Positions 2,635-59,894 of a DNA stretch of 64,000 nucleotides are shown in pieces (position 1 is the first letter of the stretch; the number at the start of each line of letters is the position of its first letter). Source of the stretch: a virus; the IMG/VR virus record IMGVR_UViG_3300040770_000181, positions 1 to 64,000 of that record; one strand, given 5' to 3'. The notes beneath the pieces are model-generated. The model had not been told where the DNA came from. It made no database searches and saw only the letters and a program-made list of their open reading frames with translations. The position numbers were made by a program, and so were the translations under genes.

Positions 2635-2741
2635 GATGTGAACAAAGGTTTATAGTAGCATTAACAAACCAGAAACCTTGAAATACCCATTAAGATCGTC
2701 TGTTAGGTTAATTTTAATCTCTCAACATTAAATTAAGAAGA

Positions 2742-3842: not shown

Positions 3843-3859
3843 TAACAAAAATAAGAAAA

Positions 3860-10089: not shown

Positions 10090-10095
10090 ATAAAT

Positions 10096-14651: not shown

Positions 14652-15040
14652 GTGGAATAGAATTAATGGATAAACATCCTTTGAGTACAACTAAACTAAA
14701 AAAATGGTTAATAGCTAAAGTTATGGATTCAATTTTAGAAAATAATGAAATGCCAGAACAGTTTAAAGAATTTGTTTTGTCTTCTTTTGAAACTAACGAA
14801 CAATTAGGAGACATTTATGAAGATAATGCTGCATCATTGTTTGAATTTTTTGATTCTTACAGCATTTTTATTCAGATTGTAAAAGGAGTGGGAACAGATT
14901 GGTTTGCTGTTTTACAAGGAGAAACATCTGATGTTTGTGGAAGCAGAAAAAAAGCAAACCGAGTTGCTTTAGAAACTGCATTCCCAATATTAGAAAAATT
15001 GTTAACTCCTAGCCCTATACAATCTTTAGATTCTAACTAA
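14648..15040 (+). CDS. Hypothetical protein, 130 aa
   Basis: Starts within the upstream stop (ATGA). Helical N-terminus; the second half (IQIVKGVGTDWFAVLQGE then SRKKANRVALETAFPILEKL) resembles a small alpha/beta domain of the kind found in phage proteins that carry a helix with RxxAxxxAF. Last gene before the hairpin at 15.07 kb. Function unknown. Confidence 0.7.
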   Translation: MSGIELMDKHPLSTTKLKKWLIAKVMDSILENNEMPEQFKEFVLSSFETNEQLGDIYEDNAASLFEFFDSYSIFIQIVKGVGTDWFAVLQGETSDVCGSRKKANRVALETAFPILEKLLTPSPIQSLDSN

Positions 15041-38195: not shown

Positions 38196-41100
38196 TTATT
38201 GTCTTGATTGAGTAGTCACTTTTATTCCCATTTCTTTTGCATATTCTGGAGCTACATAAGGTAAAACTTCTGTTTGAAGTTGTGACAGAATTGGTACAAG
38301 GCTAATGACAGCTTTTAAACCATGTGCTTTTTTGTGGTCTTCTGTAAATTCTTTTGCAACTTGCATTATAACTCTTTCTGCTTTTGAAATTAAACCTAAA
38401 GAAGGTAAAATAGAACCTTGTGTCATACTTTGAAAAGATACAGGACTGTAATAAAAAGTAATTTCATCTGTAATTTTATTAATCATTTTTAAAACAAACT
38501 TGTATTGATTCTTTGTTATCTTACTTTCATCTTCTGGAGGATCAACAATTTTTGCTGTTAATATAATACCCATCATAGAAAACAAAACACCTAATTCTTT
38601 CATTTCATTACTTAATTCTTTTCTTACTAAGTCATAAAATTCTTCTTGAGTAATTTCTAACTCTTGCCCTGTTTTAAGAAAATATTCTCTTTTCTTATTT
38701 TCAAGCATTTCATCTAAAATTTTTAATCCTTCTTCTGTTCCTGAAATAATATCACGCATTTTGCTAATATTTCCTAATCCCAGTTGTTGCCAAGTTTTAA
38801 AAAAGAGTCTCACTCTACCATATTCCCATTCTCCTAATTGAGAATTTTTATCTATATCAGTTATTCTGTCTCCAAGTAATTTAGGCATCCACGTTTTAAA
38901 CATCATAAAAGAAGAAAAAATAGCATCTCGTCTATATCCTGCTTTATTATCTGTATTCATTTGCCCATTTAGTTTTCTTCCAAATTCAACAATGCTTGTT
39001 CTAAATTTAGCTAATTCTTCTAAACTAACACCAGGAATTACCACTTCATTGTTTTCAATTTTAGCAAGAGTTAACAAAGACTCTTTTTTCATTTCAGCAG
39101 CTCTAGCCTCAAAAGAATCTTCTAATGTTTTTCTATCTTGTTCAGACAATGTATATTTAGTTTGTCTGTCTTTTTCTTTAAGAAATTGTCTAATATTAAC
39201 AATTTTACCGTTAACAATAGTAGAGTTTTCTATAAAAGATAAAGCATTTGCTAACTGTAATTTCTTTTCAGGAAAAGCATTTGTAATCATCATCACATCA
39301 CTAAAAGACCATGTAGATAAATAAGCACTTATCCCTTGTTTTTTTGCTATTTTTCTTCTTTCTTCATCAGTAATGTTATCATTTAAAGGAACAAATAAAT
39401 CTAACAAGCCTGTTTCAATTTCAGAAATATTTCCAACAGTAACTCTTGCATTGTTTCTTTCAAATTGTCCCCATGTATACACTCCTCCAGAATTAATAAA
39501 CATTTGAAATTGGTTACCAAACCAGTTAGCAATAGCAATTAACGGTTTTAAACCTACAGCAATTGCTCTTGTGTATGTATCAAGATTGTGTATTGTTTTT
39601 TTTACGTTAGTAGAATACTTAGCTTTTTGTTCATCTGTTTTTCCTGCTTTATTTGCAAATGCTGTAATTCCTTTATTAAAAGTTGTTCCCAAGTCTTGTC
39701 CTAAATTATACAAAGCATCTTCAGCTATCACTTTCATAATATCTGCATTTTTGTTTTCGTTCTTGTTTACTTTAGGGTTCATAGAACTATCAAAAATAAC
39801 TTGATTGTTTTCATCTAACATTAAAGAACCTTTTGCTTTTTCCACTTCCAATAAAACTTTAAAAGTATCTTCTAATGAATCAGCTTTTTCATAATCTAAT
39901 AAAGCTTTTATCCATAAAGCTCCCACTCTATTTAAATCAGTAGATAATTGTCTTACTTCTTTATCTGTTCTTGTAAAGTATTTAGGTATTGCTCTTACTG
40001 GTTGACCAGTTTCAGGATCAATTTTTGACATACCTTGCTCTTCATTGATTTTAGTAGTATACAATCCTCTAAAAACATCTGCAGTTTCTGATAAAACATT
40101 AGAAGCAGACCCCATTTTTTGTAGAATAGTAGCTTCAATTAATGGAAAAAAAGAAGAATCTCTTTTATTAAAATATCCTATTTCTTTTGCTTTTTCATTT
40201 AAATTTGTAAAGTACTCCCACATGTTAAGAGCATGCTCTCTACCCTTTAAAGTTTTATATTCAGGAGAATAATGTGGTTCTTCAATTATTGTTTGTTTAA
40301 ACAGCTCATTAAAATAATAAGAATCATATCCATTAAAAGTTGGAAGATCAATAAAAATTTCATTACGAAGATTTTTTAATCTGTATTCTTTTATACTTTC
40401 ATTCTCTTCTTCATCAGCAGAAAATGTAGTGTTTTCAATAGTAGTAGAGTTAGCTAAAAATAATTCATTTGCTAATCTTTTATATTCTGTTTTATTTATA
40501 TTGTCTAAGAAAAACTGTTTGTTTTTATTTTCTTTAGCATCTGAAACATCTTTGTAAAATTTAGGATCAAGTTTTTTAATTAAATTTAAACCTGTTTCAC
40601 TCATTGTTCCAATTAAATCAAATGCTTTTTTACCTATTTTTGATGCTTCTTCTTCTAAAGGAACTAATAGTTTTCCAAAAGTATCCATTTGTTTAGCATA
40701 TGCAATGTTAACTAAAGACCCAGCATTTATATTTAAATTTGCTACAAGTTTAATTAACTTAGCAGACAGCTTAGATGCTTCTTCCCATGTTTTAGAAAAC
40801 CCACTAATAGCTACTTCAGGTTTTAAAGCACTTTCTGCATTGTCTACAATACCTTCTTTTACAGCAAGTTGCCCAGCATATATTCTCATAAGATCTATAA
40901 TCTTATTTTGCATAATTTTTGTAGAGTCTGTAGCGTATTTTAATCTTTGTAAAGTTTTTTTGTTTTCTGCTGTTAGACTTTCTTTAGGGTATTGTGATAA
41001 AAACACTTCATCCATAGAAGCAAACTTTTCTCCACTTTTTTGATAATCTAGTAAATTTTGTAAGTGTGCTTTTATTTCACCCTTAGTCATTGTTGAATAA

Positions 41101-43053: not shown

Positions 43054-46000
43054 TTAAAATGGAGTACAAGAGTCATCGTTAAGTTCTTCTTGCCAAGTTT
43101 CCTCAATTAATTCTTGAGATGTTGTTAAAGTTTTGCCTAACTGTGATTCAACATGTTTTCCTATTATGCTAACAAATTCGTTTAAAACTTCATTACTAAG
43201 TTCTGCATATCTTTTTTCGATTGCTGCAGTTCTAGTAGCATTAGTTGAAATAGCCATATTTAATTTTGCAAACTGTGCAACTTTAGGGCGTAAGTCTATT
43301 AATTTTTGTTTATCCTCAGAACTTATAAAATCAAACTCATTAAAATCTACATCCATCAACACTTGCATGTTATCTGAAACTTGTTTAATAGAATCTTTAA
43401 ATGAATTTAATCTTCCAACTGGACGAGTTCCTTCATAATAATTAGAAGGTAATACTAATCTAGTAAATCCATATGCATCTAATCTTTCATTTAGTCCTAC
43501 AATGTCAGTTCCTCCTTGTGGAATACCACTTACTTTTGAAACAACTACAACATTATAAAAATGTCTACTTTGTGTACCATTGATAAAATTCTTAGAAAAT
43601 TTATTATCTCTTTCAAATTCTGCCCAATCTGTAAATCCTTCTCCTTTTGCAAGATCATCTTTAGCCATTGTACTTCCTGCTATAAATCTAATAACATCTC
43701 CAACAACTTTTCCCATTCCAAGGGGAGTTAATGTAACTTCAGTACCATCAGGAAGCGTGTATGTTCCTGATTGTAATTCAGTACTACGATTAGTTATAGT
43801 TTTAGTACCAGCTTTTATTTTAGCAATATTGTCTGGTTGCATTTCTAATCTACTTTTTGCAGCAACAACTGCAGCTGATGCAACACGTGCTGCTTCTTTA
43901 GCTGCTGCCATTATAGCAGGGTCTACAGTTTGTGTAGGTTGTTCAACAGAAAGACCTAAAATGTTTTCTATAACAGAATCTTCAACCTCTGCTGACGTTA
44001 GCAATTTTCCTGTAGCATCTCTTGTTTCTATTACTTTATCATATCCATTATCTAAAGCAGATTCTCTTTTAGTATCATAAAATTCCTGAGCTCTAAAGGA
44101 ATCTCCCCAAGCATTGATGGCTTTAAACAAAAACTTTCTTGTTATTTTACCAGTCATTTTGCTTTCAGTCACTTGCATTAATGGAACTTTTTCTCCTTTA
44201 TCATTAGTTGTATAAACTTTTTGTAAAAGTACTCTGTGAATATGAGAGTAATCACCCACTTTTCTTCTTCTTGCTTTTTCAGCTTTTCCAACATACGTTT
44301 CAGAACTATAAGTAATAAAATCATTTCTTCCTTCTGATGTAAACGGAGAAATAGCAATTATTTTAGGGAGTTGCCCTTTTTTTACTGCATCTTTAAGCTT
44401 TAAATCAATACTTTCATCAGGATTATAAAGCCTATCATCATACATACTTTGTAATAATTTTGCTCTTCTTACAGGAACAATATCTGTATTACTATAATTT
44501 TCTCTTTCAAACACATTTAGGTTACTAAATTCTGCTAAGTTACTAATATTTTCTAAGTTAGACAATGTTTCATTGTATATTTTTTGAAAATCATTGTAAG
44601 GAAGTAATGTAGTAAATGATATTTTAGATTTGTTTAATCCAGATTGTAATAAAGCAACTCTAACTAGCTGAGCGTAAAGGTCTTTGTTCTCAGATTTTAA
44701 GTGTTCTCTTAATTCATTAAATCCATATATTACTAAATTTTGATCATAAACTTTATTATCCCTACCTGCTAAATATAAGTTATTAACTTTTCCTTGATTT
44801 TCTCCTGAATCCATTTTAAGAGAGTTAACTATTATGTTTCCAAATAAAGGATGTTCAGTATTTGGTTTGATTCCTTTTAATTCATTTCCAAGAATAGTAT
44901 CAATATAATCTATTATTTTAACTGAAGATGATTTCTCTGTTTCAGATCCTAATAAAACTGATTTTATGTTTTGAACAAATTCTGGAGAAGTTTGTATTGC
45001 CCAGTCAAACATATCATTTACAGCTTTTTGAGAAACCTTTACAAAGTCTCTATCATTTAAATTTACATAAGGTAATAAAACACTTTCCATCACTGCTCTT
45101 ATTTTTGGCTTATCAGATATTAATATCTGAGCAAACGCATCTCTAAAATCATTAATAGTTTCTGTTAATGGACCAACAAATGAACTTTCTAATATGTCAG
45201 TTACAGACGATATAATAGTTTTTTTAGCTCTCTCAAGTTGAATTCTTTTTTTAAATACTAAATATGGATCATTAAAGTTTGCTGTATCATGGTTTGTACC
45301 TTGTGTTACATTAAACATGTGTGAAGACATCTTAGCATATTTTAAAAACTCTTTCAAGATATATTGTTGTTGAAGTTTTTGTACATCATCCATGTTATCT
45401 CTGTTTTCCTTCTTATTAAAAGGAAGCATTTTATATAATTCTTGTTCAGAAGGAATACCTAAAACTTCCATTACTTTAGTAGTTTTGTATTCATCCATAG
45501 TTTCAGTGGCTATACTATCAATAAACAACCAAGAGTATCCTTTGTTTTCTATATTAGCAAGATAATCTCTAATGATTGGTTGGTTCATAAAATATGCAAC
45601 AGTTTTAATTGGCACACCAAGATCTGATAAAAATAACCAAGTGCTTGTAACGTTTGGTGTAGCTCCAAGTTCCATAATCCATGGTCCTTTTGAGATATCC
45701 ACATATCCATCAATAAACATTCCATTTACATCAGAAATAAAATCACCTGCAGCATCTTTTATTCTAGAAAGAATAGGTCTTCTTTTTCCATTTACCATTG
45801 CTGAGTTATATTCTTGAAAATTAATATTAGGATTTGTAGCAAAAACATTACTGTTTGTAGTTCCTCCTAAAATAATTTTATCTGCATCATCAATTAAATC
45901 TCCATTTAACCGATCTAAATCTATATAGGTAAGTGATCTTTGTCTTTGTGCATGTCCTGTTTGTGCAACAGCAGCAATACCAATAGCTTGTTTACCAGAA

Positions 46001-49000
46001 ACAAAAGCATGTCTAAGCCCAGTCATAAACTTTCTGCTTAACATATTTCCTACTGATGTATAATCTATTTTTACGTTACCCATTTGTTTTTGAATATCTT
46101 CAGATAAAGCTTTTAAACTTGACGCATCATTAGGTTTAACAAGACTAGCAAAGTTAGACTCATGCGATACTAAATTTTCAAGAGATTGAATATATTCATT
46201 TTCTAATGATTTTTTGTAAAGAGTGTCAATTACATCTTCTCTTTGTGTAGAATATTCCTCAGGAAACATACTTTCCATAAGAGCGTCTTCCATACTACCT
46301 AAAGGTAATGAATCTTTTATTCCTGCTACATAATCATCAAAATAACCTGCATCATACAACTTACCATATTGTTCTTTTGCTTTATCACCAATACCAAAAA
46401 ATGGTACAACTTTTAATCTTCCTGCATTGTCAGAAAATAAATTCTTTAAATACATAGACAATTTATCAATATCAAAATCCGATCCTGCTTTCTTTACAAG
46501 AGCAGAAGGTATAATTACTGAATCCCCAAATTCTTTTGGCAAGAATTTTTTAATTTTAAATACATCAATAGAGTTTTGTTTTTGAGTAGGAATACGATAT
46601 GCAATTCCTGCTAAAGCAGCTAGCTCTTTTTGTCCTTCTGGACTGTTATTAAAATATGCTAAAAGTTCTGCATCCGTTTTCTTAGATTTGAACCATCTAC
46701 CAACCATAACTTCACAATAACGTTTTCCATCTTCATCCTCGTAAAATTTAAGTACATCAGAAGAGTAGACAGGCTTACCATTAAGTTCTCCTGTTACAAC
46801 TCTGTTTTCTTCAAGTAATGCAGAAGACACTTGTACTTTCATTCCTCCTGATATTTTAGGACGAACAATGTTTTTATCTGCAATAGAGTAAAGAATGTTT
46901 CTAATTTGTTGGTACACAGGAGTAGCTTCAAGAACAACATGCCCTTTTTCAAAACCTTCAAATGCATCTAACAAGTTATAATTAACTTCTCTTTTAATAA
47001 TTTCGTCTCTTAATGTGTCAATAAGTTTTGTTCTATCTTTAATTGTATATTGTTTTTTCCCATCTACAGTGGATTCTACTAGTCCCAGTTTTTTTAATAA
47101 AGAGTTATATCCCTCTATTGTCTTTGCTTCAAGAAGTGCTTGGTTATGTTTAATTTCTTTGTATAAAGGAGATGCAATTTCTTTTGCTTCTTCTGTACCT
47201 ACTTCCATCCATGCTGCAAACCTAAGATCAAAATCTTCAATTTTTTTTCCTTCTTTATCAAAAATTTTAAAATCAACTGGTACACCAGCTTCTAAAAAGT
47301 CCATGGTTGCAAGTTTAGTTATCTGAGACCCTTGTGTAACCATAGGCGTGTCTTTAGAAGGCACTTCAGACTGAACAGCAACAATAGAGAAAGGAATTTT
47401 ACTAACTGCTCTAAGATCACTTGTTTTAAGAGTACCATCTAGTTCTTCTTGAGATTGAAAAGGAGTTTCATCAAATGCACCTGTTGAGGTGTATAAAGGA
47501 GAAACTTTTTCTGTTCCCACTTTACTACCAGAAGCAAACACAGCATAATCAATATCCTCTTTTTGCATCTTATTATAAAGTTTAATTGCATTAGAGTTAG
47601 GATTCATTATGTGTAAGATTCTAAAAGATAATGGTACCAATGCAAACTTATGCAAAACAATATCATTATAATTTCTTCCATTATCTTTACTTCCTCTAGT
47701 AATAGGTTTGATAGGAGTGTATGTACTTTTTATTTCAGGGTTTCCTGCTTTAAATAATACTTTTTCTTCATCAGACAATTTAATTCCTTTAACATTCTTT
47801 TCATAAGCAATGTCAAACATGTATTGTCTTTCATTAGCCTCAGTCCATGACCCATCTCTTAATTTAAAAACTCTATTTGCTTTTAATGTAATGTATCCAC
47901 CACCATCTGTTTCTTCATAAGCATCATCATAATCTTGTAAATCATTTACACTTAATACATCTTCTGCAGTTATAGTTCTAAAATGGTCTCTTAACATATC
48001 TGTATGACCAATATCTCCTTCTGCATATCCTTTATCTTCATTGTAAAGTTTATTAAGAGAAGTGTTAACAACAGAAGAATTACTAATTAAAGGTTGCCCA
48101 GGAGAATTAAAGTTTTTAATACGTTTTAATTCATCTTTATATTGGTAAGGATCTGAATAAATAATTTTGTGTAACTCTATGTTAGAAATCATATAATTAG
48201 CTGCCAACAATCTTAACTCCTGTAACAATGTTTCAGGTGTTAAATTTTCCATTTCATTAAATAACAATTCTTTAACTACAAAACCATCTTCTGTATATTC
48301 AGTTATTTGATATTGTGCTAACAAGTCAGCAGTTTCATTTGCTTCTTTTTCTATAAAAGCTTGAACAGCTGCATCTATTTTAGCTTGATACCCTTTAAAT
48401 GCAGCACCTTTTCCATAACCATAATAAAGTTGTTCTGCTGAATACTTAGAGTTAGCAGTAGACATTATTTCATTGTGTAATGCATCTCCTAAAATAGATT
48501 TAAAAAAACGTAAATCTGTTGTGTTTCTTCCTTTTACTGAAGGAATGTTTCTTTTTTCTTTTGCTAAATTTACTTCAGCAAAAAAGTAATCTCTAAAAAT
48601 TTCTTTATGTTTGTCTAACTTGTACGTAGCATTACTAACAAATGGAGAATCGGCAGTGTGCATCTTAACAAAATATTCTAATGACGCATCCCCAGGAACA
48701 AGATTTGCATACTTTCCTGATATGTTAAGATTTATTTCTTGAACAATTCTTTCTTTAATAGATTGTTTAGAAGATTGTTTTTTCTTACCAGTAGATTCAT
48801 TGTTAGTACCATCAATAATAGTAACTTTTAATAAATCATTAGTTCCTTGTTTTCTACCACCATTACCAATAAGGTCAAACATTTTTCCAAGTAATACAGA
48901 ACCTTTAGTAAAACTGTCAGTTAATAAATATTTGTAAGCAGTACCGTCTAATTCACTAATACTCTTCATTTTAGAAAGAGTGTTATGTAAATCACTAACA

Positions 49001-52000
49001 ACATTAGTTCCAATAAATGTTTGAGACCTTTCACCATTAATATTAAAGTAAGTACTCTCATGATCAGGTTTATCTAATATAGCTAGTACAACACTTAACT
49101 GACTAAGACGTTTGTCAATATTTAATGTTCTTGCATTTACAACTGTTATAGCAGAATCTCCTTCTGTTTGTTTACCATTTGCATCTGTAATCATTTGAGG
49201 ATCTCCTATTACAACAAGAGATTCTTTTATTTTAGTAACAGCTTCAAAAAACAAAGCACGTTGTGTGTCATCTAAATTAAACTTAACATCTCTTAATGTA
49301 ATATTAATTCCAAGGTTTTTTAAAAAATTTACATAACCTTCTGGAGCTTTTACATTAAATTCTGGTAATGCTTTTAGTTTAGCTGAAGCATAAAATTTAT
49401 AATTTTCCTTATTATAAGTAAAGAAAGGTGATTGATCTTGTTTAATTGTTTGAGACATTTTACTAATCAATTCTCTTTTTTGTTGTTTTGATGCATTGTT
49501 AAGAGTAGTGTCTCCAATAACAACAGACCCATCTCCTAAAACAAATACAGTTACAATATCTGCATTTTGTTTTTTCATAGATTTCCAGAAAGATGCAATC
49601 AATTGAAAGTCATGTGCTTTAATATCAGCTAGATTTAATGTAGTGCCAGGTTTTTTTCCTGTCATTCTTGAATACAATAAAGAATAGTTGTCATTCTTCA
49701 TAGCCATTCCATTAAGTTTTTTAAACATGTCTTCAATATTAACAGAGTTGTGTAACTCACTAACAAGATCTATGTAAACTTTATCTGCAGGCAATAATGT
49801 TCTACCACCAATAGATGATGGTTTGTTCTTTAAGACACCGTCTATTAGTTGTTTTTCTGGAAGTGTTCCTAACATTAACTTAATAGCACTATTTGATTTT
49901 CTAAATGAATCAATCTTATCAGCACCATCGTATTCTCCTTTACCAGTAGTAGAAGCAGAATCATCTTCTAAAACAATCTCATCATTTTCATCAAAGTCTA
50001 CTGAGTAAGATTTTAAATTAAGTACATGCTCTTTAACAATATTATCCCATTGTGCAGAAACTGTTCTGTAAAGAGTTGTAAAATTATTAGCACCTATAAT
50101 ATCATCAGCTGAAATTGCTGTAGTTCTTTTTATTGAAATTAAGTTTAAAACTTCTGCTTTTAACCTAGTATATAATTCTGTTTTATTAATACTTTCTATA
50201 GTGAACACACTCTTATCATCTTTAATCATGTTTGCTAGAGTTGAATAAGTCATGTGTTGTATAATGTCATGAAATTGTACTTCAGGAATTCCTACAACAC
50301 GAAATGCAGAAGTAGCATCCCCAGTAGCATTAGCTACATCAATGATTCCTTTGTTAGCATAGGAAAGCCCACTAGTATAAGGATTATAGTCTTTATAGTA
50401 TCCATTACCTATTTTACTAAATAATTTTTGTGTATTGCTCAATGCTGCCTCACCTGTAAAAAATTCCTTTATAAACGCAACAAGTTCACTAAACATTCTT
50501 GATATAAGAGAACCTCCTTTTTTTCTGTCAGCAATTTTGCCTGTCATAACAAAGTCTCTAAATTCTTCAGCTAGCTCTTCTTTTAATTGTTCGTTTGTTG
50601 CTACACTATATGCAATTCTTTCTCCTGTAAACCTATCAATGTAAGTTCCTTTTCTATCTCTAAATTCATCTATAATTGTTTGTTTATCAGCAGGACCTGT
50701 AAACATTTTCCACACTGCTTCAAACACTTCATGGTAAGCTGTACCTGCTTCTGCATTCTCATAAATATATATAGCACCATCATGTAACATTCCCCAAGCT
50801 TGTCTACCATTAGTAGCTTGAATAATATTCTTCACTCTATATACAGGAACGTTTGGAAAGTTTGCTTTTATAAACTCTTCAACTTGTGCCCAGTTTTCTG
50901 GAGGAATAGTTTGTGATACATACTCTTGAACTAATCTATAGTTATCATCATTTACAGGAGTAGGAGGAGGAATGTCATCACCAGCATCTAAAACTGTAAC
51001 AGGAGCTGCTTGTCCAACTGGAGGATCAGCAACTGCTGGTTGATTAGGCATTTGTGAAGCTTTTACAAAAGGTTCAACTTTTGCTTCTATAGATTTTATA
51101 AATACACTAGCAGCTTTTTGTTGTGCAATATCTCTTTGCTGTTCTTCTGTTTTATTCATATCTGCTGGTGCCACTGGATATGTTAATGACAGTTTTATAA
51201 TAGCAGGCAGAGTTTGATCTAAATCTAAAGTAACTTTTCCTGTTGGAGCGATAGTAAAAACAAGGTTTCCAAACACAGGATGAGAAATAGTATTAAGACC
51301 ATCCATTACAAAAACAGGAGTTACAGGAGCTGGCCTAGTTAAAGCATCGTATTCTGCAACTAATGCAGTTAGACCGTTAGCATCATCCCATGCTTTCATT
51401 GCAGCATCTAGAGCTTCAAGAGTTATTAACTGTTGATTAGAATCTCTAATTGCTTTCTGAACTACTTTATCATTTTTTCTTTCATTAACTAACACATTAA
51501 TTTTTTCAGCTAATATTTCTGCTGGACTTTTTTGAGTAGCTTTTTCAGCAGCTTTATCAGCAGCTTCTTTTTCTTCTCTATATTTCTTAGCTAAAGATTT
51601 TTTTATTACACTATAAGCAAAATTTATTTCATCTTGAGATGTTCCAGTAGACTGTATTTCAATAGCAGGTAAAGATTTTTCTTTATTGACCTCTACATTA
51701 AATGCAGCATCTATAGTAAAATAAACATTACCAATAGTTGCATTGTTATATATATTTTCTGTTACTCCATCAAACACAACAGTACTTGCTGTAGGTGTAG
51801 GGGTAACAGTAGGTGTAACAGTAGGTGTAACAGTTACAGTCACTGCAGGTTTAGTTGCTGTAGGTGCTGTTTTTGTTCTTACAGGAATATCAAATCTTTC
51901 TTTATTACCATCTAATGTAAAATAAATAGCTTTTCTATTAGTAGGTTGATCTTCTGATATAGGTCTAAATTGTGTAGCCAAAGGAATTTCTTTAGCTGAT

Positions 52001-55000
52001 CTATTCTTTCCATCAGGAGTTTTATTAGATAATAAGTAAGATTGATAGTTTTGCCAAACAACTTTGTTAACACTACCATCAGAATTAACTCCAGTTATTT
52101 GTATATAAGGAATGTTAACAGCATCTGATTTATTAACAACAGAAGAGTTTGTATTAAGATACATGTTGTTTAACAAATAAAGAATGTCAGTTTTTCTTTC
52201 AAGAAGTCCACTAGGTGTAAAGTCAAAAGCTTTTTGAGAGTCTTTATTTAAACCAGACATAAAAAGTTTTTGAACCATTTTACCTTCTTCGTTTTGAGCA
52301 GACTCAAACCAAATGTTATTATACCCAGCATCTTTTCTTCTACCATCAGGATATTTTGCAATTCCCCAGTATACCACTGTTTTTAACCAGTCAAATAATT
52401 CTTTTGAATCTTCAGAAATTTCTCCCTGTTTCATTGTGTTCTTTGTAATTTGTAACATTACATCAAACATTGTTTCAGCCTCAGTAGAATTAAACTTTCT
52501 ATTAAAAAGTTTAGCCATACCAACACCTGCAATTCTTAAGAATACTCTACCTTTTGGAGATTCAAAAATAACATTGTTTTCATCAACAGTATCTCCTGTT
52601 GATGCCACCTCAACCACTTTATTTTGACGTAAAGTATCTTGAGTTATTAATCCTGCGTCTTCTGCAGATGTTCTAGCATCAGAGGGTACAGTTGTAATTC
52701 CTTTTGAATCTGTTGTAGTAACCAATTCAGGTATACCAAAAGAAGCTGTGATAGCTTCTGAATAAGGAGCGTCTGTAAGAGCTAATTGTTCATCTCTCCA
52801 TTCTTTATATCTTTTTTCTAAGACAGCTACATCATCAGGATGAGTGTCATCTCTAAACATTGAACCATAAACTTTTTGTCCTGCTGCGTTGTAATAATTT
52901 CCTTTTAATTCAGCTGCAGGAAACACTTGATAAATACCATTATTAATAGCATCACCACCTTCAGGAATTCTAACTCCTTCTTGGTCAACAGGAAATCCTT
53001 CTTCATCAGTCATAACTAATACAATAACGTCATCATTACTATATTTAGCTCTATCTTTTGCAGATAAGTCTGACATTAAATGTTCTACAAGACCAGGTAT
53101 AACATCGTTTTCTGTTTTATTTGTAACAACTTGTCCACGGATCTCATCTCGGTTTTTAAACGTATGTAAGTTATTACCAAATATATTAGCTCTCTTTTGA
53201 TGAGGTTTACCATCATCAACAGGTTTAGTACTAGTTACCACCTGCATATCAGTTTTTTTAGGAGCAGCTTCATAAGGTCTAGTTCCAAAGAAATTTTGAA
53301 CACTGTTCATGAGGGTTCCAAGAAATGATTTTTTTAATTCTTCATTTTCTTGCATTTTAATAGCTTCTAGTCTTAAAGTTTCAATGTCAGCAGCGTATTG
53401 TTCAAAAGCAGCAAGTATTTCTGCTTTAGCAATTTGTTCATTAATTAACTTATCAATGCCTTTATCTAAATCTGCTATTTCTTCAATTACTTTTTCTAAC
53501 TGTGCATTAAGTTTTGGTATACCAAGTTCTTCATAAAAATCATTTAGGTCAGCTTCTAGTTCTAAAACTTGAGCTGTAAACCCTTGTTTGTTATCAATAA
53601 AATATTGTGCTCCTTCTTCTCCTAACATTTTTTCAAGGTTAGCTTGTAAAGCATCAATAGACAATGGTACATTAGGATTATCTTCTTTAATACGTTTAAT
53701 GTAATCATTAAATATAGATAAAGTTCTTTGAAGAGTATCTTCAATTTGTTTTAATAAAGACTCATTAGATTTAATAGCATCTGAAGTTATTTTAATAACA
53801 TCATCTAATACATTAATATCATCTTTTAATTGCTTAATCATATCTCTACCTGATTCAGGAAGAGTTTCTAAGGTGTCTAAAAAGTCTTTAAAGAAAGGAA
53901 TGTTACTTTCTAAGTCTTCTTTTTCTTCTTTTAATGTTTTAGTTTCAGCTTCAACAGTAGTATGAAGATCTGCAAGAGCAGCAATTGTTCTTCTTAAAAT
54001 TACATTAGGTCTTTTTCTAACAGTCCCTTTAGCAGTTAAATCTCCTTTTGCTTGTTCTCTATCTCTTATTTCTTCTAACGCTGCTTTTTCTTTTTCAAAT
54101 CTTTCTTTATTTCTTTCTAATTTTTTAGTAATTTCTTCAACACGTTTAACTCCATTAGTATAAAGGTCAGAAATAATACTATTACGAACTTTTAATCTTT
54201 CAGATACAGTTGTTTTTGCTTTTCCAAATTCTACTAAAGCAGTTTGTTCTGCAGCAGTTAATTCTCCAACAGCAACTAACATAGCTTGTTTGTAATCTTT
54301 TTGAGCAACAAATTGATTATTCCAAACTTCTTTTCTTTGTACAACACCATTATCATCTACATAAGCAAATGTAAGTCTGTCCTTAGCATGATTGTATTCA
54401 AGTCTTCCTCTTACAGGCTGTCCCTTAGAATCTTTAATATTGTAATTTTTATATATTTTATTTTGATTAGCTTCTAAAAATTTATATTTAGGGTTAGCTA
54501 ACATTTCACTAGACTTAGTTAATGAATAAGAATTAAACTCTGCTTCAGAAACATCTCTAATAACTCCGTTAGAACCTTTTATTTTTATTGTACCATCTTC
54601 ATTTTTTCCTAATACAGTTAATCTAGGTTGACTAAATACTGCAGCACCTTTAGCTGTATAAGCAATTGTTTTACCTAAAGCATATTCAGTTCCTATTTCA
54701 ACTTGTCTATCTCCATTTTTAGTTTTAATAGTAATTTTTTCTTTAGGAGTTTCTTCTGCAAGCTTTTTTTCTCCAGCAGGTTTTTCTGTATAGTTTTCAG
54801 GTTTGTTTTTTATATCTTGATATTCTTTTACAAATTCTCTTCTACGCATAGCAAGTTCAATTACATCTTGCAATGCAACTTTAAGATCATCTTTGTCTAA
54901 TGTGTCAGAATCTGCAACATCAGCTAAAGCACCTTTAATTGATTCTTCACTAGGAATACCACTTACCATAACATCTTCCAACACAGCCATTGTATTCACT

Positions 55001-57093
55001 CCAGCAACTGCAAGTTCAGAGTTTAGTTCTGGTAATCTTCTATCGTAGTCCATAACTTTTGAACCAGCATATACAAGTTTTTCTATAACAGCATCTGAGT
55101 AAACTCTTTCTCCTGTTTCTTTATTTACAACACCTGAATATTTTAACGTAGCAGCATCATACATTTTAGAAGCATGTGCAGCATGAGTTTCTATATTAGC
55201 TAACCTAGCAAGGAAAGATTCCTTAGTATCCAAAGCTGTAGCAACTTCTGTTTGTTGTAACCCTACAAAGTTTTCTATAGCAGCTAATCTAAGATCTGCT
55301 ATTTCTGAAGCTATTGCATCTTTAGCACCATATTTTAAACGAGTGGCTATAAAGTTATGGGCATAATCAAATTCAAGATCTTTAGATTCTAAAATATCTC
55401 CTCTTCTAATTGCAGCTTCTCTATCAGCTTGTATACTTTCTGCAGCAACAACATTACGATAAGCATCTATCATCTTATCTTTTATTCTTGTTTTGTTCAA
55501 AGCTACTATAGATGTTTCTCTATCTATAGATTCTTGTCCACCATATCCAGTAAAACCTCTTTCACCTATTTTTCCAGTTTGTCCAAAAGAAGGCAAACCA
55601 TTTTTTACTCCAACAATACCTGAAGATTGTAAAGCTCCAGAAAATGCTCCAGTAAATATATTAAGAGTACCTTCTCCTGTAGTTAAAGCTTCTTTAACAC
55701 CAAACAATAAACCATCTGCTAAAGCAGAAGGAGTTTCATTACGGTATTTTTTATCAAAATAATGCTGAGTACCTGTTTGAATAGCAAACTGTGCTCCTTC
55801 TTCAAAACCTTCTGAAGTGTTAAAAAACAAAGAAGCAACATTTTTAGCTTGATACATTCTTTTCCCAAATCCTTTTGCTGCTAAAGAGGAAACATATTCT
55901 CCTTCTGCATTTCTAACAACATTATTTAATATGTTTTTTTCAGCTTTAAAAGAAGAAGAAAATATTTTAGGAAGTTGTATGTAGTTAGTTGCTGTTAATA
56001 AAGCAGTATTTAAACCAAAACTCCAATCACCAACTTCTGCAGCAGCTCTATTAATTTCTTCTAACTCCATTCCGTCTGGAGCATAACCATATTTTTCAGT
56101 AAAGTCAGCAATTTTCTCAGCTCTAAATTGTTGAGAGTTACCCAAAGCTTCCATACCAGCTTCACCAAATGTACCAAACGTTGCAACAATAGCCCGATCA
56201 GATTGCATTAAACCTTTACCAATGTTAACTTTTGCACCACCCCAAAGGTTTTCAAGTGCTGAAGTTGTTCTTGCCATTCTTTCAGCAGCAGGAAGCAATG
56301 AAGCTTCAGCAATAGCAGTGTCAGCAGATGCAGCAAGTTTAGACCCTGCTCCCATTAACTTACCTGTTAATCCAATTGCTTTTAATGCACCACCCCAAGC
56401 AAAACCTGAAGCCATTGCACCTACAGAAAATCCTAAGTTTTTAATAATATTATCAAATAAAAAGTTACCAGAAAATACATTAGCTGGTTCCCACCAATCT
56501 CCTGTTCTTTCTCTTTCTGTTTTATAATGAGCAAAGCTGTCTTCCATCTCTGCTGTAACATTATTAAGATAATTAGTAAGGTCATTATTATAAAATGATT
56601 CTACTTTACCATCTTCTGCTGCTTTAGCTATCCCATAAACAAGTCCTGCTGTACCATTAACAAAAGTAGTAGTAGCAATTCCTGCCATTTTAACAACACC
56701 ATTAACTGCTTTTTGGCCAAGAGTTTGTCCTCCTGCATATGCAGTTTCATTATCAATTCCTTTATATGTTAAAGGATATCTGTTAGATAATTGATTTGTA
56801 TTAATTGTAAATTTAGTAGTATCTTCTGCTGAACCATTAGCTCTTGCCATACTTTCAGCAATAGAGTCTGTTTTTATATTTGCATTGTTAGACTGCCCTC
56901 TAATAGGTCTTGGGCCTGCACTTGATCTTTGAGCAGGTTGAGTGGTATCCATACTACCAGCATCTCCTACATTTGTACCTCTTTCTCCTAACCAAGCGTC
57001 AAATCCACTATCAGTGGATGCAGGGGTTAGTGATGGTGTTGCTGGACTTAGTAATTGTAAATCTTGTGGTGTCAATAAGTTTTCTTCTTCCAT
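43054..57093 (-). CDS. Giant virion RNA polymerase-containing protein, 4679 aa
   Basis: A single 14-kb gene. Near residue 3539 it has KKAGSDFDIDKLSMY with D3539-x-D3541-x-D3543, the metal-binding DxDxD of two-barrel RNA polymerases. About 40 residues before is YRIPTQKQNS, matching the RxPxQ element next to the catalytic barrel. The crAss-like phage phi14:2 virion polymerase (gp66) has this arrangement and is injected to transcribe early genes. Upstream are N-terminal Ala/Gly-rich possible membrane-active helices (130-270), coiled coils (about 1000-1300), a Thr/Pro linker near 1770, and a zincin-like HEVFE site at H2121. Near 4410-4530 is an ASCH/PUA-like region (AKIKAGTKTITNRS). No proteolysis sites are evident. 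Product: transcription on entry (inferred from family). Confidence 0.8.
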   Translation of the reverse strand: MEEENLLTPQDLQLLSPATPSLTPASTDSGFDAWLGERGTNVGDAGSMDTTQPAQRSSAGPRPIRGQSNNANIKTDSIAESMARANGSAEDTTKFTINTNQLSNRYPLTYKGIDNETAYAGGQTLGQKAVNGVVKMAGIATTTFVNGTAGLVYGIAKAAEDGKVESFYNNDLTNYLNNVTAEMEDSFAHYKTERERTGDWWEPANVFSGNFLFDNIIKNLGFSVGAMASGFAWGGALKAIGLTGKLMGAGSKLAASADTAIAEASLLPAAERMARTTSALENLWGGAKVNIGKGLMQSDRAIVATFGTFGEAGMEALGNSQQFRAEKIADFTEKYGYAPDGMELEEINRAAAEVGDWSFGLNTALLTATNYIQLPKIFSSSFKAEKNILNNVVRNAEGEYVSSLAAKGFGKRMYQAKNVASLFFNTSEGFEEGAQFAIQTGTQHYFDKKYRNETPSALADGLLFGVKEALTTGEGTLNIFTGAFSGALQSSGIVGVKNGLPSFGQTGKIGERGFTGYGGQESIDRETSIVALNKTRIKDKMIDAYRNVVAAESIQADREAAIRRGDILESKDLEFDYAHNFIATRLKYGAKDAIASEIADLRLAAIENFVGLQQTEVATALDTKESFLARLANIETHAAHASKMYDAATLKYSGVVNKETGERVYSDAVIEKLVYAGSKVMDYDRRLPELNSELAVAGVNTMAVLEDVMVSGIPSEESIKGALADVADSDTLDKDDLKVALQDVIELAMRRREFVKEYQDIKNKPENYTEKPAGEKKLAEETPKEKITIKTKNGDRQVEIGTEYALGKTIAYTAKGAAVFSQPRLTVLGKNEDGTIKIKGSNGVIRDVSEAEFNSYSLTKSSEMLANPKYKFLEANQNKIYKNYNIKDSKGQPVRGRLEYNHAKDRLTFAYVDDNGVVQRKEVWNNQFVAQKDYKQAMLVAVGELTAAEQTALVEFGKAKTTVSERLKVRNSIISDLYTNGVKRVEEITKKLERNKERFEKEKAALEEIRDREQAKGDLTAKGTVRKRPNVILRRTIAALADLHTTVEAETKTLKEEKEDLESNIPFFKDFLDTLETLPESGRDMIKQLKDDINVLDDVIKITSDAIKSNESLLKQIEDTLQRTLSIFNDYIKRIKEDNPNVPLSIDALQANLEKMLGEEGAQYFIDNKQGFTAQVLELEADLNDFYEELGIPKLNAQLEKVIEEIADLDKGIDKLINEQIAKAEILAAFEQYAADIETLRLEAIKMQENEELKKSFLGTLMNSVQNFFGTRPYEAAPKKTDMQVVTSTKPVDDGKPHQKRANIFGNNLHTFKNRDEIRGQVVTNKTENDVIPGLVEHLMSDLSAKDRAKYSNDDVIVLVMTDEEGFPVDQEGVRIPEGGDAINNGIYQVFPAAELKGNYYNAAGQKVYGSMFRDDTHPDDVAVLEKRYKEWRDEQLALTDAPYSEAITASFGIPELVTTTDSKGITTVPSDARTSAEDAGLITQDTLRQNKVVEVASTGDTVDENNVIFESPKGRVFLRIAGVGMAKLFNRKFNSTEAETMFDVMLQITKNTMKQGEISEDSKELFDWLKTVVYWGIAKYPDGRRKDAGYNNIWFESAQNEEGKMVQKLFMSGLNKDSQKAFDFTPSGLLERKTDILYLLNNMYLNTNSSVVNKSDAVNIPYIQITGVNSDGSVNKVVWQNYQSYLLSNKTPDGKNRSAKEIPLATQFRPISEDQPTNRKAIYFTLDGNKERFDIPVRTKTAPTATKPAVTVTVTPTVTPTVTPTPTASTVVFDGVTENIYNNATIGNVYFTIDAAFNVEVNKEKSLPAIEIQSTGTSQDEINFAYSVIKKSLAKKYREEKEAADKAAEKATQKSPAEILAEKINVLVNERKNDKVVQKAIRDSNQQLITLEALDAAMKAWDDANGLTALVAEYDALTRPAPVTPVFVMDGLNTISHPVFGNLVFTIAPTGKVTLDLDQTLPAIIKLSLTYPVAPADMNKTEEQQRDIAQQKAASVFIKSIEAKVEPFVKASQMPNQPAVADPPVGQAAPVTVLDAGDDIPPPTPVNDDNYRLVQEYVSQTIPPENWAQVEEFIKANFPNVPVYRVKNIIQATNGRQAWGMLHDGAIYIYENAEAGTAYHEVFEAVWKMFTGPADKQTIIDEFRDRKGTYIDRFTGERIAYSVATNEQLKEELAEEFRDFVMTGKIADRKKGGSLISRMFSELVAFIKEFFTGEAALSNTQKLFSKIGNGYYKDYNPYTSGLSYANKGIIDVANATGDATSAFRVVGIPEVQFHDIIQHMTYSTLANMIKDDKSVFTIESINKTELYTRLKAEVLNLISIKRTTAISADDIIGANNFTTLYRTVSAQWDNIVKEHVLNLKSYSVDFDENDEIVLEDDSASTTGKGEYDGADKIDSFRKSNSAIKLMLGTLPEKQLIDGVLKNKPSSIGGRTLLPADKVYIDLVSELHNSVNIEDMFKKLNGMAMKNDNYSLLYSRMTGKKPGTTLNLADIKAHDFQLIASFWKSMKKQNADIVTVFVLGDGSVVIGDTTLNNASKQQKRELISKMSQTIKQDQSPFFTYNKENYKFYASAKLKALPEFNVKAPEGYVNFLKNLGINITLRDVKFNLDDTQRALFFEAVTKIKESLVVIGDPQMITDANGKQTEGDSAITVVNARTLNIDKRLSQLSVVLAILDKPDHESTYFNINGERSQTFIGTNVVSDLHNTLSKMKSISELDGTAYKYLLTDSFTKGSVLLGKMFDLIGNGGRKQGTNDLLKVTIIDGTNNESTGKKKQSSKQSIKERIVQEINLNISGKYANLVPGDASLEYFVKMHTADSPFVSNATYKLDKHKEIFRDYFFAEVNLAKEKRNIPSVKGRNTTDLRFFKSILGDALHNEIMSTANSKYSAEQLYYGYGKGAAFKGYQAKIDAAVQAFIEKEANETADLLAQYQITEYTEDGFVVKELLFNEMENLTPETLLQELRLLAANYMISNIELHKIIYSDPYQYKDELKRIKNFNSPGQPLISNSSVVNTSLNKLYNEDKGYAEGDIGHTDMLRDHFRTITAEDVLSVNDLQDYDDAYEETDGGGYITLKANRVFKLRDGSWTEANERQYMFDIAYEKNVKGIKLSDEEKVLFKAGNPEIKSTYTPIKPITRGSKDNGRNYNDIVLHKFALVPLSFRILHIMNPNSNAIKLYNKMQKEDIDYAVFASGSKVGTEKVSPLYTSTGAFDETPFQSQEELDGTLKTSDLRAVSKIPFSIVAVQSEVPSKDTPMVTQGSQITKLATMDFLEAGVPVDFKIFDKEGKKIEDFDLRFAAWMEVGTEEAKEIASPLYKEIKHNQALLEAKTIEGYNSLLKKLGLVESTVDGKKQYTIKDRTKLIDTLRDEIIKREVNYNLLDAFEGFEKGHVVLEATPVYQQIRNILYSIADKNIVRPKISGGMKVQVSSALLEENRVVTGELNGKPVYSSDVLKFYEDEDGKRYCEVMVGRWFKSKKTDAELLAYFNNSPEGQKELAALAGIAYRIPTQKQNSIDVFKIKKFLPKEFGDSVIIPSALVKKAGSDFDIDKLSMYLKNLFSDNAGRLKVVPFFGIGDKAKEQYGKLYDAGYFDDYVAGIKDSLPLGSMEDALMESMFPEEYSTQREDVIDTLYKKSLENEYIQSLENLVSHESNFASLVKPNDASSLKALSEDIQKQMGNVKIDYTSVGNMLSRKFMTGLRHAFVSGKQAIGIAAVAQTGHAQRQRSLTYIDLDRLNGDLIDDADKIILGGTTNSNVFATNPNINFQEYNSAMVNGKRRPILSRIKDAAGDFISDVNGMFIDGYVDISKGPWIMELGATPNVTSTWLFLSDLGVPIKTVAYFMNQPIIRDYLANIENKGYSWLFIDSIATETMDEYKTTKVMEVLGIPSEQELYKMLPFNKKENRDNMDDVQKLQQQYILKEFLKYAKMSSHMFNVTQGTNHDTANFNDPYLVFKKRIQLERAKKTIISSVTDILESSFVGPLTETINDFRDAFAQILISDKPKIRAVMESVLLPYVNLNDRDFVKVSQKAVNDMFDWAIQTSPEFVQNIKSVLLGSETEKSSSVKIIDYIDTILGNELKGIKPNTEHPLFGNIIVNSLKMDSGENQGKVNNLYLAGRDNKVYDQNLVIYGFNELREHLKSENKDLYAQLVRVALLQSGLNKSKISFTTLLPYNDFQKIYNETLSNLENISNLAEFSNLNVFERENYSNTDIVPVRRAKLLQSMYDDRLYNPDESIDLKLKDAVKKGQLPKIIAISPFTSEGRNDFITYSSETYVGKAEKARRRKVGDYSHIHRVLLQKVYTTNDKGEKVPLMQVTESKMTGKITRKFLFKAINAWGDSFRAQEFYDTKRESALDNGYDKVIETRDATGKLLTSAEVEDSVIENILGLSVEQPTQTVDPAIMAAAKEAARVASAAVVAAKSRLEMQPDNIAKIKAGTKTITNRSTELQSGTYTLPDGTEVTLTPLGMGKVVGDVIRFIAGSTMAKDDLAKGEGFTDWAEFERDNKFSKNFINGTQSRHFYNVVVVSKVSGIPQGGTDIVGLNERLDAYGFTRLVLPSNYYEGTRPVGRLNSFKDSIKQVSDNMQVLMDVDFNEFDFISSEDKQKLIDLRPKVAQFAKLNMAISTNATRTAAIEKRYAELSNEVLNEFVSIIGKHVESQLGKTLTTSQELIEETWQEELNDDSCTPF
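51791..51836 (-). repeat. Short tandem repeat coding a Thr/Pro/Val linker
   Basis: Tandem 12-base units (GGTGTAACAGTA as read on the + strand, repeated with small changes) code for TVTPTVTPTVTPTP near residue 1765 of the giant protein, an interdomain linker. Repeat number could vary by slippage. Confidence 0.7.
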
Positions 57094-57095
57094 GA

Positions 57096-59894
57096 TTATA
57101 GTCCATTGTTTATTAAATTGTCGAGCATTGCTTTGTTATTTATATCTGATGTAATCCATTTAGTTGCGTCATCTGCACTTGTAAAACGGTTAGGGGTTAT
57201 ATCTCCTTTGTTTGCTTTAGCAGGAACACCTATTACGCCAGCGTTTGTTTTTACATATAAGTATACACCATGTCCTCCTCCGTCTAATTTAACAACTTCT
57301 GCTCCTAAAACATTTGTTGAATTAAATTTTTCTTGGAACATACTACCAGGAATCATAGCTCCCTTATAAGCATCAGGATGATTTGGTTTAAGTTTACCTG
57401 CATTTGTAGTACCAGCAACTCCACTTGCTTGTAAGCGTCTGGCTGTTGCTGAAGGGCCTGCAGGAACATCAATAATAGACCCTTTTAAATAATTAGCTTC
57501 CATAGAGCTAATAGGAATAGATTTTACTAAACCTGCTGCATTATATAAGTTTAAAGAGAAATCTTCTTTTTTACTAAAGGCTCCACCTCTATCTATTTGT
57601 ATTTGTGTAGAAAAGTTTTTTTCATCTGTGTACAAACTATTAAAAGCATCCAAACCTCCTGTGTCTTTGTGATTGTTTAAAACTAATTTTACTCTATCAT
57701 TAGTAGATTCTCTTTCTGCTCCTTTTGCATCTTTATTATAAATAGTATAAGCTAGTGGTTGTGGAGTAATAGAATTATCTGATAAATATTTTTCTTGGGC
57801 TGCAAGAACATTAGCAAATTTTTGACTGTTAACTGTTGCAACAGCTTTAACTAAAGAAGGATTAGCAGGAGTTAATTGTCCAGAACTTTGTCCTAAACCT
57901 GTAACACCCATTAATTGATCAACACTCACTCCAAATTTTTGAGTAAGAGAAGCAGATGCTCTTTCATATTGTTTTTTTTCACTATCAGTTCTTGTAATAG
58001 TTCTTGCTGTACCAATAACTCCTCCTTGCATTCTTTGTACAATTGCTAAGTTTACTGCATCTGTTGCAGTGACTGTTGCTTTTAATTGTTTACGTGGTTG
58101 AAACAGTCCACGATTGGTTGGAAAAAATGTAGCATTGTCTTCTTCATAAAGAGTAATTTCAAATGGTTTGTATCCTTTACTTATTGATTCAACGTTAACT
58201 TCCTTTCCACCTGCAGCAACAACTAATGGATCGTTATTCATATTTGAATTTACAGAATCTGATTCATGTAAATTAGCTTCTGCCTGTTGTGCTAAAGGTA
58301 TTTTTGTTAGTAGTCCTGAATAAAGAGGGTTTGCTACTAATGCTTTATTAGATGATACTTTTATTGCTCGGTCATACATTCTAACCATATACCCAGGCGC
58401 TGATTTTTCATAAGCTGCCATTTGTTTTCTTACTTGATCTGGTGTAGGTGTTTTTCCATTTCCAAAATTTAAAGCAGATATATACTCAGCAACAACATCT
58501 CCTTGAATTTTTTTAAAGTCAGATGCAATATCTTCTGTTGATTGCATAAAATAACCAACATTAGATTGATAAGGAGTTCCTCCTGGAATTGCATCTCCAA
58601 CAGTTGTTGGTTTTAATTTATTATTTGGATTAGTTTTATCATTGTCCCATTTAGTCTGTGCTAAATTTGTGTTCATCCTTCCTGTTTCAGCATTATAATT
58701 AGCTGTAGCATTAGAAGCCCATCCTCTTGCAGATGCATCTTTTTGTGCCCAGTCATCTCTTGCAGCTTGTAACCTAGCTTGAGCAGCTTCATAAGGAACA
58801 TTCTTCATAATTTCTGAAGTATATTGTTCAGTCACTCCACTCTTCATATAATTGTTTCTAACAGACATAATTTCTAAAGCAGCTTTATATCCTTCAACAG
58901 AACCAAACTGTGCAGCTTCTGTTTCTTTAGCTAATGTTTCTTCTCCAATACTAATAACTCTTGCTTCGATTGCAGAAACAGCTGATTGATAAGCTAGTTT
59001 TTCTTGAGGAGTTGTTACCTCTGTTGCCTTTTCCATTAGTTCAATTTTTCTTGCTTCTAATGTTTCAATTGCTGATGCTTTTTCTCTTTCATATTTTTGT
59101 ATAAAAGAATTAATATCAGAGTAGCCTCTGTAATTATATATACCACGCATGGTTAATTCCTGCTTTGCTTCAGGTCTTTGTAAAACACCATCAATAGCAG
59201 CAGCAACATTTTGACTAAATCTACCTTCTTTTTTTTCTCTAATAGCGTAATCAGAAAGAATAGGCTGACCTTTAGAGTCATGCATAATTCTTTTATTTTC
59301 ATCCATTCTAAATACATTATCTGCGCTCCATTTACTTTCTCCAACAGCTTTAATTGCTTCTAGCATATTTTTATCTATGTCCCAAGATTGATCATACTTA
59401 CCATTAAAAGCAACAGCAGATCCATCTTCTTCAAGAAGATTAGTATTATTATAATATTTGCTACGCTTTAAACCATAATAGTATTCTGCATGAGGAGTAA
59501 GTTTACCTTCCTTTTTATCAGATTCCATCTGGGCTACTTGTTTTCTATCGTTTGCAGTAGATGATACAGCAGATCTAATGATACTATCATTTGCTATATT
59601 TTTAATCATACTAGTAGTAGAATTCTGTAATTGAAAATTAGAAAAATCTCCACCAGCAATTCCTTTTAAACGATTACCTGTATCATTTAATTTAGATTGA
59701 ATATAAGATTTATCTACATCTCTACCTATGTCAAGACCAGCAACTTGATCAATACTTTCTTGTATTTTTTGGTATCCTTCATTGTATTGTTGTTGCTTCT
59801 GCATACCAACTTTAACCATTGCATCAATGGGTTGTTGTTCTACATAAGGGTTAAAGGTGGAGAGAGCTTGTGTATTATCTGTAAATGAAGCCAT
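57096..59894 (-). CDS. Virion structural protein, 932 aa
   Basis: A 932-residue protein, first of the operon that includes the giant polymerase (starts 2 bases apart). The N-terminus MASFTDNTQALSTFNPYVEQQPIDAMVKVG..QKQQQYNEGYQKI is a pattern I associate with structural proteins of Bacteroidota phages. The middle (240-420) is helical and charged, the second half beta-rich and Thr/Val-rich with a Gly-rich end (LDGGGHGVYLYVKTNAGVIGVP). A tail, connector or cargo role is likely but not defined. A TTG-N20-TACTTTTG promoter lies 17 bases upstream. Confidence 0.65.
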   Translation of the reverse strand: MASFTDNTQALSTFNPYVEQQPIDAMVKVGMQKQQQYNEGYQKIQESIDQVAGLDIGRDVDKSYIQSKLNDTGNRLKGIAGGDFSNFQLQNSTTSMIKNIANDSIIRSAVSSTANDRKQVAQMESDKKEGKLTPHAEYYYGLKRSKYYNNTNLLEEDGSAVAFNGKYDQSWDIDKNMLEAIKAVGESKWSADNVFRMDENKRIMHDSKGQPILSDYAIREKKEGRFSQNVAAAIDGVLQRPEAKQELTMRGIYNYRGYSDINSFIQKYEREKASAIETLEARKIELMEKATEVTTPQEKLAYQSAVSAIEARVISIGEETLAKETEAAQFGSVEGYKAALEIMSVRNNYMKSGVTEQYTSEIMKNVPYEAAQARLQAARDDWAQKDASARGWASNATANYNAETGRMNTNLAQTKWDNDKTNPNNKLKPTTVGDAIPGGTPYQSNVGYFMQSTEDIASDFKKIQGDVVAEYISALNFGNGKTPTPDQVRKQMAAYEKSAPGYMVRMYDRAIKVSSNKALVANPLYSGLLTKIPLAQQAEANLHESDSVNSNMNNDPLVVAAGGKEVNVESISKGYKPFEITLYEEDNATFFPTNRGLFQPRKQLKATVTATDAVNLAIVQRMQGGVIGTARTITRTDSEKKQYERASASLTQKFGVSVDQLMGVTGLGQSSGQLTPANPSLVKAVATVNSQKFANVLAAQEKYLSDNSITPQPLAYTIYNKDAKGAERESTNDRVKLVLNNHKDTGGLDAFNSLYTDEKNFSTQIQIDRGGAFSKKEDFSLNLYNAAGLVKSIPISSMEANYLKGSIIDVPAGPSATARRLQASGVAGTTNAGKLKPNHPDAYKGAMIPGSMFQEKFNSTNVLGAEVVKLDGGGHGVYLYVKTNAGVIGVPAKANKGDITPNRFTSADDATKWITSDINNKAMLDNLINNGL

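Follow-up and report, generated by a model that had tools for sequence, protein, structure and literature searches.

The crAss-like phages are the dominant members of the human gut virome. Several cargo proteins of 150-700 kDa must pass, in order, through tail constrictions of less than 50 Å. The annotations of gp65, gp66 and gp67 of phage phi14:2 are based on virion MS/MS, and the structure of gp66, a single-chain RNA polymerase with two barrels, was solved (6VR4). The gp67-, gp66- and gp65-type proteins of crAss001 are, by profile, gp47, gp50 and gp49, respectively, and these cargo proteins are reportedly not resolved in the cryo-EM of this phage. All three were detected by MS in crAss001 virions, in which disulfides between virion proteins are also known (PMC10172136). 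The role in early transcription is known for crAss-like relatives (PMC10136315).

Giant polymerases are also carried by other phages. The vRNAP of N4-like phages (Schitoviridae) is likewise a giant single-chain polymerase injected with the DNA, but it belongs to the T7-like family. The vRNAPs of LUZ7, LIT1 and PEV2 are cysteine-free, and this was proposed to ease passage through the tail and periplasm (PMC3715699). The virion RNAP of P23-45, gp96, is fused with the tape measure (PMC10770324). The protein described here is likewise predicted to be a two-barrel RNAP within a giant ejected chain, but in P23-45, a Thermus phage with a long tail, the RNAP is N-terminal on the tape measure, and the fusion partner is a different one.

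The window analyzed here covers positions 1-64,000 of a virus record of 81,250 bases, which is an incomplete contig. An open reading frame of 4,679 residues is located on the minus strand at 43054..57093, in exact agreement with the ORF listing; its product is designated here as the giant, and the coordinates of its parts and of its cargo neighbors are likewise on the minus strand. The next gene (38196..43043) encodes a 1,615-aa protein which matches phi14:2 gp65 in blastp (E = 7e-6) and is designated as the gp65-type partner. On the other side, proteins of 932 aa (57096..59894) and 902 aa (59983..62691), both without Cys, occupy the places of crAss cargo C2 and C1. The cargo/transcription block is in the crAss order of tail protein, C1, C2, gp67-, gp66- and gp65-type, where C1 and C2 are assigned by position only, from the gene order of phi14:2.

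The first-pass annotation recognized a crAss-like virion RNA polymerase from a DFDID metal motif preceded, by about 40 residues, by RIPTQ. DFDID is present at residues 3539-3543 (46465..46479) and RIPTQ at residues 3500-3504 (46582..46596), 39 residues earlier; the single occurrence of DFDID compares with 0.004 expected from composition. A family profile of residues 2920-4110, built from 19 relatives, matched 6VR4 in PDB with the e-value 1.1e-43 over ~870 residues (858-1728 of the chain), with DFDID aligned on DFDID. Using residues 3350-3900 as the tblastn query, phi14:2 gp66 (annotated as 'Catalytic RNA polymerase subunit'; E = 8e-18) and many other crAss-like RNAPs were retrieved. In the blastp search against phi14:2 proteins, residues 2349-3851 were aligned on gp66 (E = 7e-36, ~21-24% identity), and a weak second gp66 piece was found at 4132-4373. 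The gp66-type polymerase part, predicted to be two-barrel, is accordingly assigned to residues 2349-4385 (43939..50049). D3539, D3541, D3543, K3191, K3260, R3500 and Q3504 show no variation among the 19 aligned relatives. Lys 3191 (SGSKVGTEK) and Lys 3260 (GSQITK), located at 47314..47523 and corresponding to the alignment columns K272 and K341, are candidates for the catalytic lysines of the second barrel, and both of their motifs, as well as the DFDID context, lie inside the region homologous to 6VR4.

The AlphaFold2 model of residues 2920-4110, based on 19 sequences, shows a mean pLDDT of 59 and a pTM of 0.52, and its barrel region (pLDDT 30-50) is of too low confidence to show a double-psi barrel. 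Nevertheless, when this low-confidence model was compared by Foldseek with 350,542 PDB chains, 6VR4 was the sole significant match (E = 1.4e-14), although the Foldseek scoring also draws on residue identity and this fold match is therefore not fully independent of the sequence. It is extremely improbable that DFDID arose by chance or is unrelated and that the giant is a tape-measure-like or ejection protein devoid of polymerase activity. Searches of Pfam, PHROGs and, with the single sequence, PDB with the whole giant gave no match explaining the protein, and this would suit such a reading, as would the low-confidence barrel, but the profile match over ~870 residues and the catalytic residues invariant in all relatives argue against it. 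Judged by these similarities, the giant is a crAss-type virion RNA polymerase of the gp66 family, as was first proposed, and enzymatically it is predicted to be one more representative of a known type.

The N-terminal part of the giant is related to another cargo protein. Residues 156-495 were aligned on phi14:2 gp67 by blastp, and the HMM of the N-terminal module (residues 96-490; 55624..56808) matched phi14:2 gp67 (E = 2e-14), crAss001 gp47 (E = 6e-47), phi17:2 gp039 (E = 5e-52) and a 1552-aa protein of the cyanobacterial phage Lbo-JY46 (E = 6e-43). This module is conserved in crAss-like phages and also in relatives without the polymerase. In crAss001 and Dulem virus 41, the gp67-type protein has a zincin-like domain at its C-terminus, and the fusion boundary in the giant is therefore placed just past its zincin-like domain, at ~2260-2290. 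On these matches, gp67-type and gp66-type cargo are fused in the giant. The chain would consist of a gp67-type leader with a zincin-like end (~1-2290), a gp66-type polymerase (~2290-4385) and a variable tail, in line with the earlier description of a multi-domain cargo with uncharacterized parts. With respect to the coiled coils named in the first-pass annotation, K, E, R and D account for 41% of residues 1001-1100. A membrane-spanning leader was considered and dropped, since 21-residue windows with hydropathy of at least 1.2 number 2, versus 9.6 in the shuffled sequence.

The fusion accounts for a length of more than twice that of gp66, which the first-pass annotation had pointed out and which is not unusual among crAss-like phages. 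Fusions of this kind are already on record in cr4_1 (4,491 aa), cr118_1 (4,946 aa), cr50_1 (4,774 aa) and Fpv1 gp33 (4,401 aa), and about 100 distinct relatives from IMG/VR, which holds hundreds of relatives, are mostly 3,700-5,000 aa. With annotated crAss-like proteins of 4,491-4,946 aa and published giant crAss RNAPs of up to ~6,000 aa (PMC10136315), the length of the giant was rejected as a novelty. In one relative (L074:965-20191), the gp67-, gp66- and gp65-type parts are all joined in a single chain of 6,405 residues. phi14:2 gp66 shares with the giant the single-chain polymerase with DFDID, predicted to be two-barrel in the giant too, the place in the gene order and a Cys near the C-terminus. 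It differs in being separate from gp67 and in having an N-terminal Cys, while the giant is fused, lacks that Cys pair, and additionally holds the zincin-like domain and an ASCH-like tail. cr118_1, cr50_1, cr4_1 and Fpv1 gp33 have the same leader-polymerase fusion and the same neighbors, and there, too, giant and partner both carry Cys where their ends face each other. However, cr118_1 shows only ~23% identity where compared, and a helicase is found in its tail in place of the ASCH-like segment.

The zincin-like domain (residues 2050-2260; 50314..50946), which forms the C-terminal end of the gp67-type part, is among the best conserved parts of the giant in the alignment. The HEVFE site reported by the first-pass annotation is present at residues 2121-2125 (50719..50733). 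It is not, however, the plain HExxH of zincin metallopeptidases; the second His is substituted by Glu, giving HExxE with an altered second metal ligand. Among 100 distinct homologous domains, ~76 have HExxE and 23 have HExxH. The HExxH form is seen in cr118_1 and cr50_1 (canonical HEAFH, versus HEVFE in the giant), in the group L019-L024 and in crAss001 gp47, whose residues 2105-2294, with the motif HEAFH, match the HMM of this domain (E = 3e-17). The polymerase tree places the HExxH group L019-L024 in a nested position close to HExxE sequences, and therefore the two states have interchanged. A low-confidence AlphaFold2 model of residues 2030-2360 from 18 sequences gave no fold match in PDB. 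By motif alignment, the gp65-type partner contains a related-looking EExxH motif together with a PD-(D/E)xK-like motif. The giant of L010 has an extra canonical HEIGH at residue 916 in its leader part, in addition to its HEVGE site.

Carriage in the virion, the remaining part of the initial proposal, is well supported by homology, namely by the MS/MS-based annotations of phi14:2 and by the MS data on crAss001 (PMC10172136). By analogy with these two phages, the giant is likely to be packaged and injected. It would be threaded into the host with the DNA, leader first, and would transcribe the early genes.

The giant contains only 2 Cys in 4,679 residues, C3460 and C4676. The latter (43066..43068) is located at the very end of the chain (DDSCTPF followed by the stop), while the gp65-type partner, which starts with MSCNDKKKF, has its single Cys at position 3 (43035..43037). 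This arrangement is general among the relatives. The complete relatives contain on average 1.85 Cys per ~4,280 residues (0.04%), compared to 1.2% in the replication proteins of the phage itself. A Cys lies within the last 12 residues in 79 of 80 complete giants, against 0.42 expected, an expectation which considers composition only, and a Cys at position 3-5 was found in 92/92 downstream partners, whose starts in the IMG/VR set were placed at the first ATG close to the stop of the upstream gene; as the IMG/VR relatives share ancestry, neither 79/80 nor 92/92 represents independent trials. No other Cys is present in 61 of the 71 complete partners.

The same pattern was observed in 12 named phages, all crAss-like or related: crAss001, DAC15, cr112_1, Dulem virus 41, phi14:2, phi17:2, Fpv1, cr50_1, cr118_1, cr108_1, cr4_1 and Lbo-JY46. 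p-crAssphage is outside this set, and for cr4_1, which was read through reassigned in-frame TAG codons, the analysis was restricted to the termini. Wherever two neighboring cargo proteins are separate, both of the ends that face each other carry Cys (18 of 18 junctions), while no Cys is found within 15 residues of the free N-termini (0/12) or the free C-termini (0/12), and none at fused junctions. Proteins with two partners, such as gp66, crAss001 gp50, DAC15 gp076, the Dulem RNAP and phi17:2 gp038, have Cys at both ends. In crAss001, in which the three proteins are separate, junction Cys are seen at all four facing ends. Cys kept only at junction ends also distinguishes crAss cargo from the cysteine-free N4-like vRNAP.

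Changes in the number of chains are accompanied by changes in Cys. The fully fused 6,405-residue chain contains zero Cys. In L067, the giant is split in two, and exactly at the split a Cys is found at the end of the upstream piece and the polymerase begins with MGVC; in L180 an extra split coincides with an extra Cys pair. The N-terminal tags of the L067 polymerase and of the gp65-type protein are homologous (score 152 versus a shuffled maximum of 71), as if a single coupling module had been employed at both sites. Cys pairing predicts the succession gp67, gp66 and gp65 types, and the fused chains show this very succession. In the IMG/VR set, the C-tag and the N-tag change jointly by class; because the two are adjacent in the DNA, this joint change could be one recombination. 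A literature search for disulfide or terminal-Cys links among ejected phage proteins, which did not extend to the phi14:2 structure paper, found none for crAss cargo, and the terminal-Cys rule looked new.

From the Cys pattern, it may be proposed that C4676, the sole terminal Cys of the giant, and C3, the sole Cys of the partner, form an interchain disulfide. The pair would exit the virion as a head-to-tail chain and be separated by reduction in the host cytoplasm, and a fusion would be the peptide-bond equivalent of the disulfide link. Both the disulfide and a role in ordered ejection are suggested by this pattern alone. We are reasonably confident that the giant is a deep-branching crAss-like vRNAP with a gp67-type leader, a two-barrel polymerase and a variable tail in one chain, packed and injected, with the proposed disulfide between C4676 and C3 of the gp65-type partner. 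If true, the coupling would explain the near absence of other Cys in the cargo proteins. The Cys rule would predict the links between cargo proteins and their sequence along the chain, and would make the question of ordered ejection testable.

Other explanations of the terminal Cys were weighed against the partner link. The Cys could serve a homodimer disulfide, metal binding, lipid attachment or a contact with the portal or capsid, and the disulfides known in the crAss001 virion (PMC10172136) mean that a terminal Cys could bond to structural proteins. This is unlikely, as the Cys are found only at ends facing another member of the series while free N- and C-termini have none, and a general terminal function would not track junctions in such a way that splitting a chain adds Cys pairs and fusing chains removes them. 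Far less probable is a signal in the nucleic acid, such as translational coupling or an RNA element at the stop-start junction. It is prompted by the IMG/VR set, in which the giant and partner genes overlap or are within ~15 bases and both Cys codons lie near that point. However, crAss001 (gp47), cr112_1 and DAC15 encode the gp67-type protein on the opposite strand, and it still has the C-terminal Cys, and the last two partners of phi17:2 are separated by another gene; a cause in the DNA junction is rejected because the junction Cys are kept in these phages. Moreover, TGT and TGC are both used as junction Cys codons, and the fully fused gene has no Cys.

The fusion itself could be read differently, as a precursor which is cleaved after synthesis or after entry into gp67-like and gp66-like proteins. 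A P/T-rich, poorly conserved stretch at ~1780-2050 and the position of the zincin-like domain directly ahead of the polymerase part fit this possibility, which is nevertheless doubtful: a cleavage site was not identified in the giant, most of the clade has the altered HExxE as the zincin motif, and the fusion takes the place of a junction Cys pair, as if the linkage were meant to last.

The C-terminal end of the giant (residues 4386-4679; 43057..43938) lies past the end of the alignment at residue 4385, and is absent from the closest relatives. Among 101 distinct relatives, the tail is 17-92 residues long in 71 and at least 100 residues long in 30. Long tails include NADAR domains in L011 (E = 2e-13), L020 (2e-14), L120 (1e-12), L147 (1e-14) and L151 (4e-14), and in L080 just below the cut-off. 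DUF7831 was found in the tails of L037 and L041 (E ~3e-38), cpYpsA/SLOG in those of L095 and L107, a weak ART-PolyVal in L057, and ASCH-like segments in others; the helicase in the cr118_1 tail belongs to superfamily 1. The tail in the window contains an ASCH-like segment at ~4408-4525, and its similarity to the ASCH-like group is seen in the motif and in direct matches (L188-L190); a similar segment is also present in L012, at another position. The ASCH-like end noted at first is plausible on this basis, but it stays below the Pfam threshold: ASCH (PF04266) gave no match to the tail of the giant, and homologous tails reached only E ~0.06-0.1.

Judged from the alignment, the C-terminal tail is a variable slot behind the polymerase. 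Its domains in the relatives are like those of polyvalent proteins and NAD/ADP-ribose effectors, which are virion-carried and include NADAR, ART and SLOG-type domains; the text of the survey of this repertoire does not mention crAss phages (PMC9503650). The difference is that in the relatives of the giant these domains sit behind the polymerase. NADAR, cpYpsA/SLOG and DUF7831 are clear in the relatives, while the giant has only the weak ASCH-like segment. The payload slot looked new. We infer that it delivers counter-defense enzymes at entry, and it points to domains which phages would deliver on entry, ahead of the host-defense reaction. Extending the Cys pattern and the slot to crAss-like phages in general, we lean slightly towards a covalent head-to-tail cargo train, in which a C-terminal Cys would be joined to the next N-terminal Cys, peptide fusion would be interchangeable with Cys pairs, and the slot would carry exchangeable counter-defense enzymes.

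TerL, portal and MCP were not found on the incomplete contig, and its assignment to the crAss-like phages (Crassvirales) relies on sister contigs as well as on its own tail and cargo genes. A phi14:2-type portal was found in 12 of 16 sister records and TerL in 6 of 8. The TerL of one sister contig, L027, is closest to that of Lbo-JY46 (40%), followed by those of the Cellulophaga phages phi4:1 and phi17:2 (31.6%). The phi14:2 MCP as a query gave no match in the sister contigs, and a 520-aa protein at the MCP position of L027 matches only the Leptolyngbya phage Lbo-JY46. phi17:2 belongs to the Epsilon group, which was described as being without the RNAP block (PMC7886860). The lineage thus looks like a deep, environmental crAss-like lineage possessing the polymerase. 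Lbo-JY46 (L026, PP438436), by TerL the nearest named relative of the lineage, possesses a tail and cargo block of the crAss-like type, which includes the gp67-type module and the junction Cys pair; the DxDxD context of the polymerase was not found in its cargo proteins.

Several further observations concern the polymerase gene and its surroundings. In cr108_1 (L017), the polymerase gene is split at 14528-14819 between GSD and FDID, exactly within the catalytic motif, and an intron is the probable cause; polymerase gene disruptions of this kind were reported (PMC7886860). L009 and L011 have an insert of ~200 residues (~residues 3556-3803) of no recognized family, ~27 residues past DFDID. The small gene gp037 of phi17:2 (L197), located between gp038 and gp036, encodes a protein with a SLOG-type-like start (MFKIIIAGGRDFC). 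Elsewhere in the window, a 1,144-aa protein (25456-28890) without a PHROG match appears by eye to be a fusion of a methyltransferase and glycosyltransferases. A 1,393-aa tail fiber with long GTSGTSG collagen-like repeats is encoded at 33995-38176, and rIIA- and rIIB-like proteins (PHROG 612 and 609) are encoded side by side at 7765-11544.
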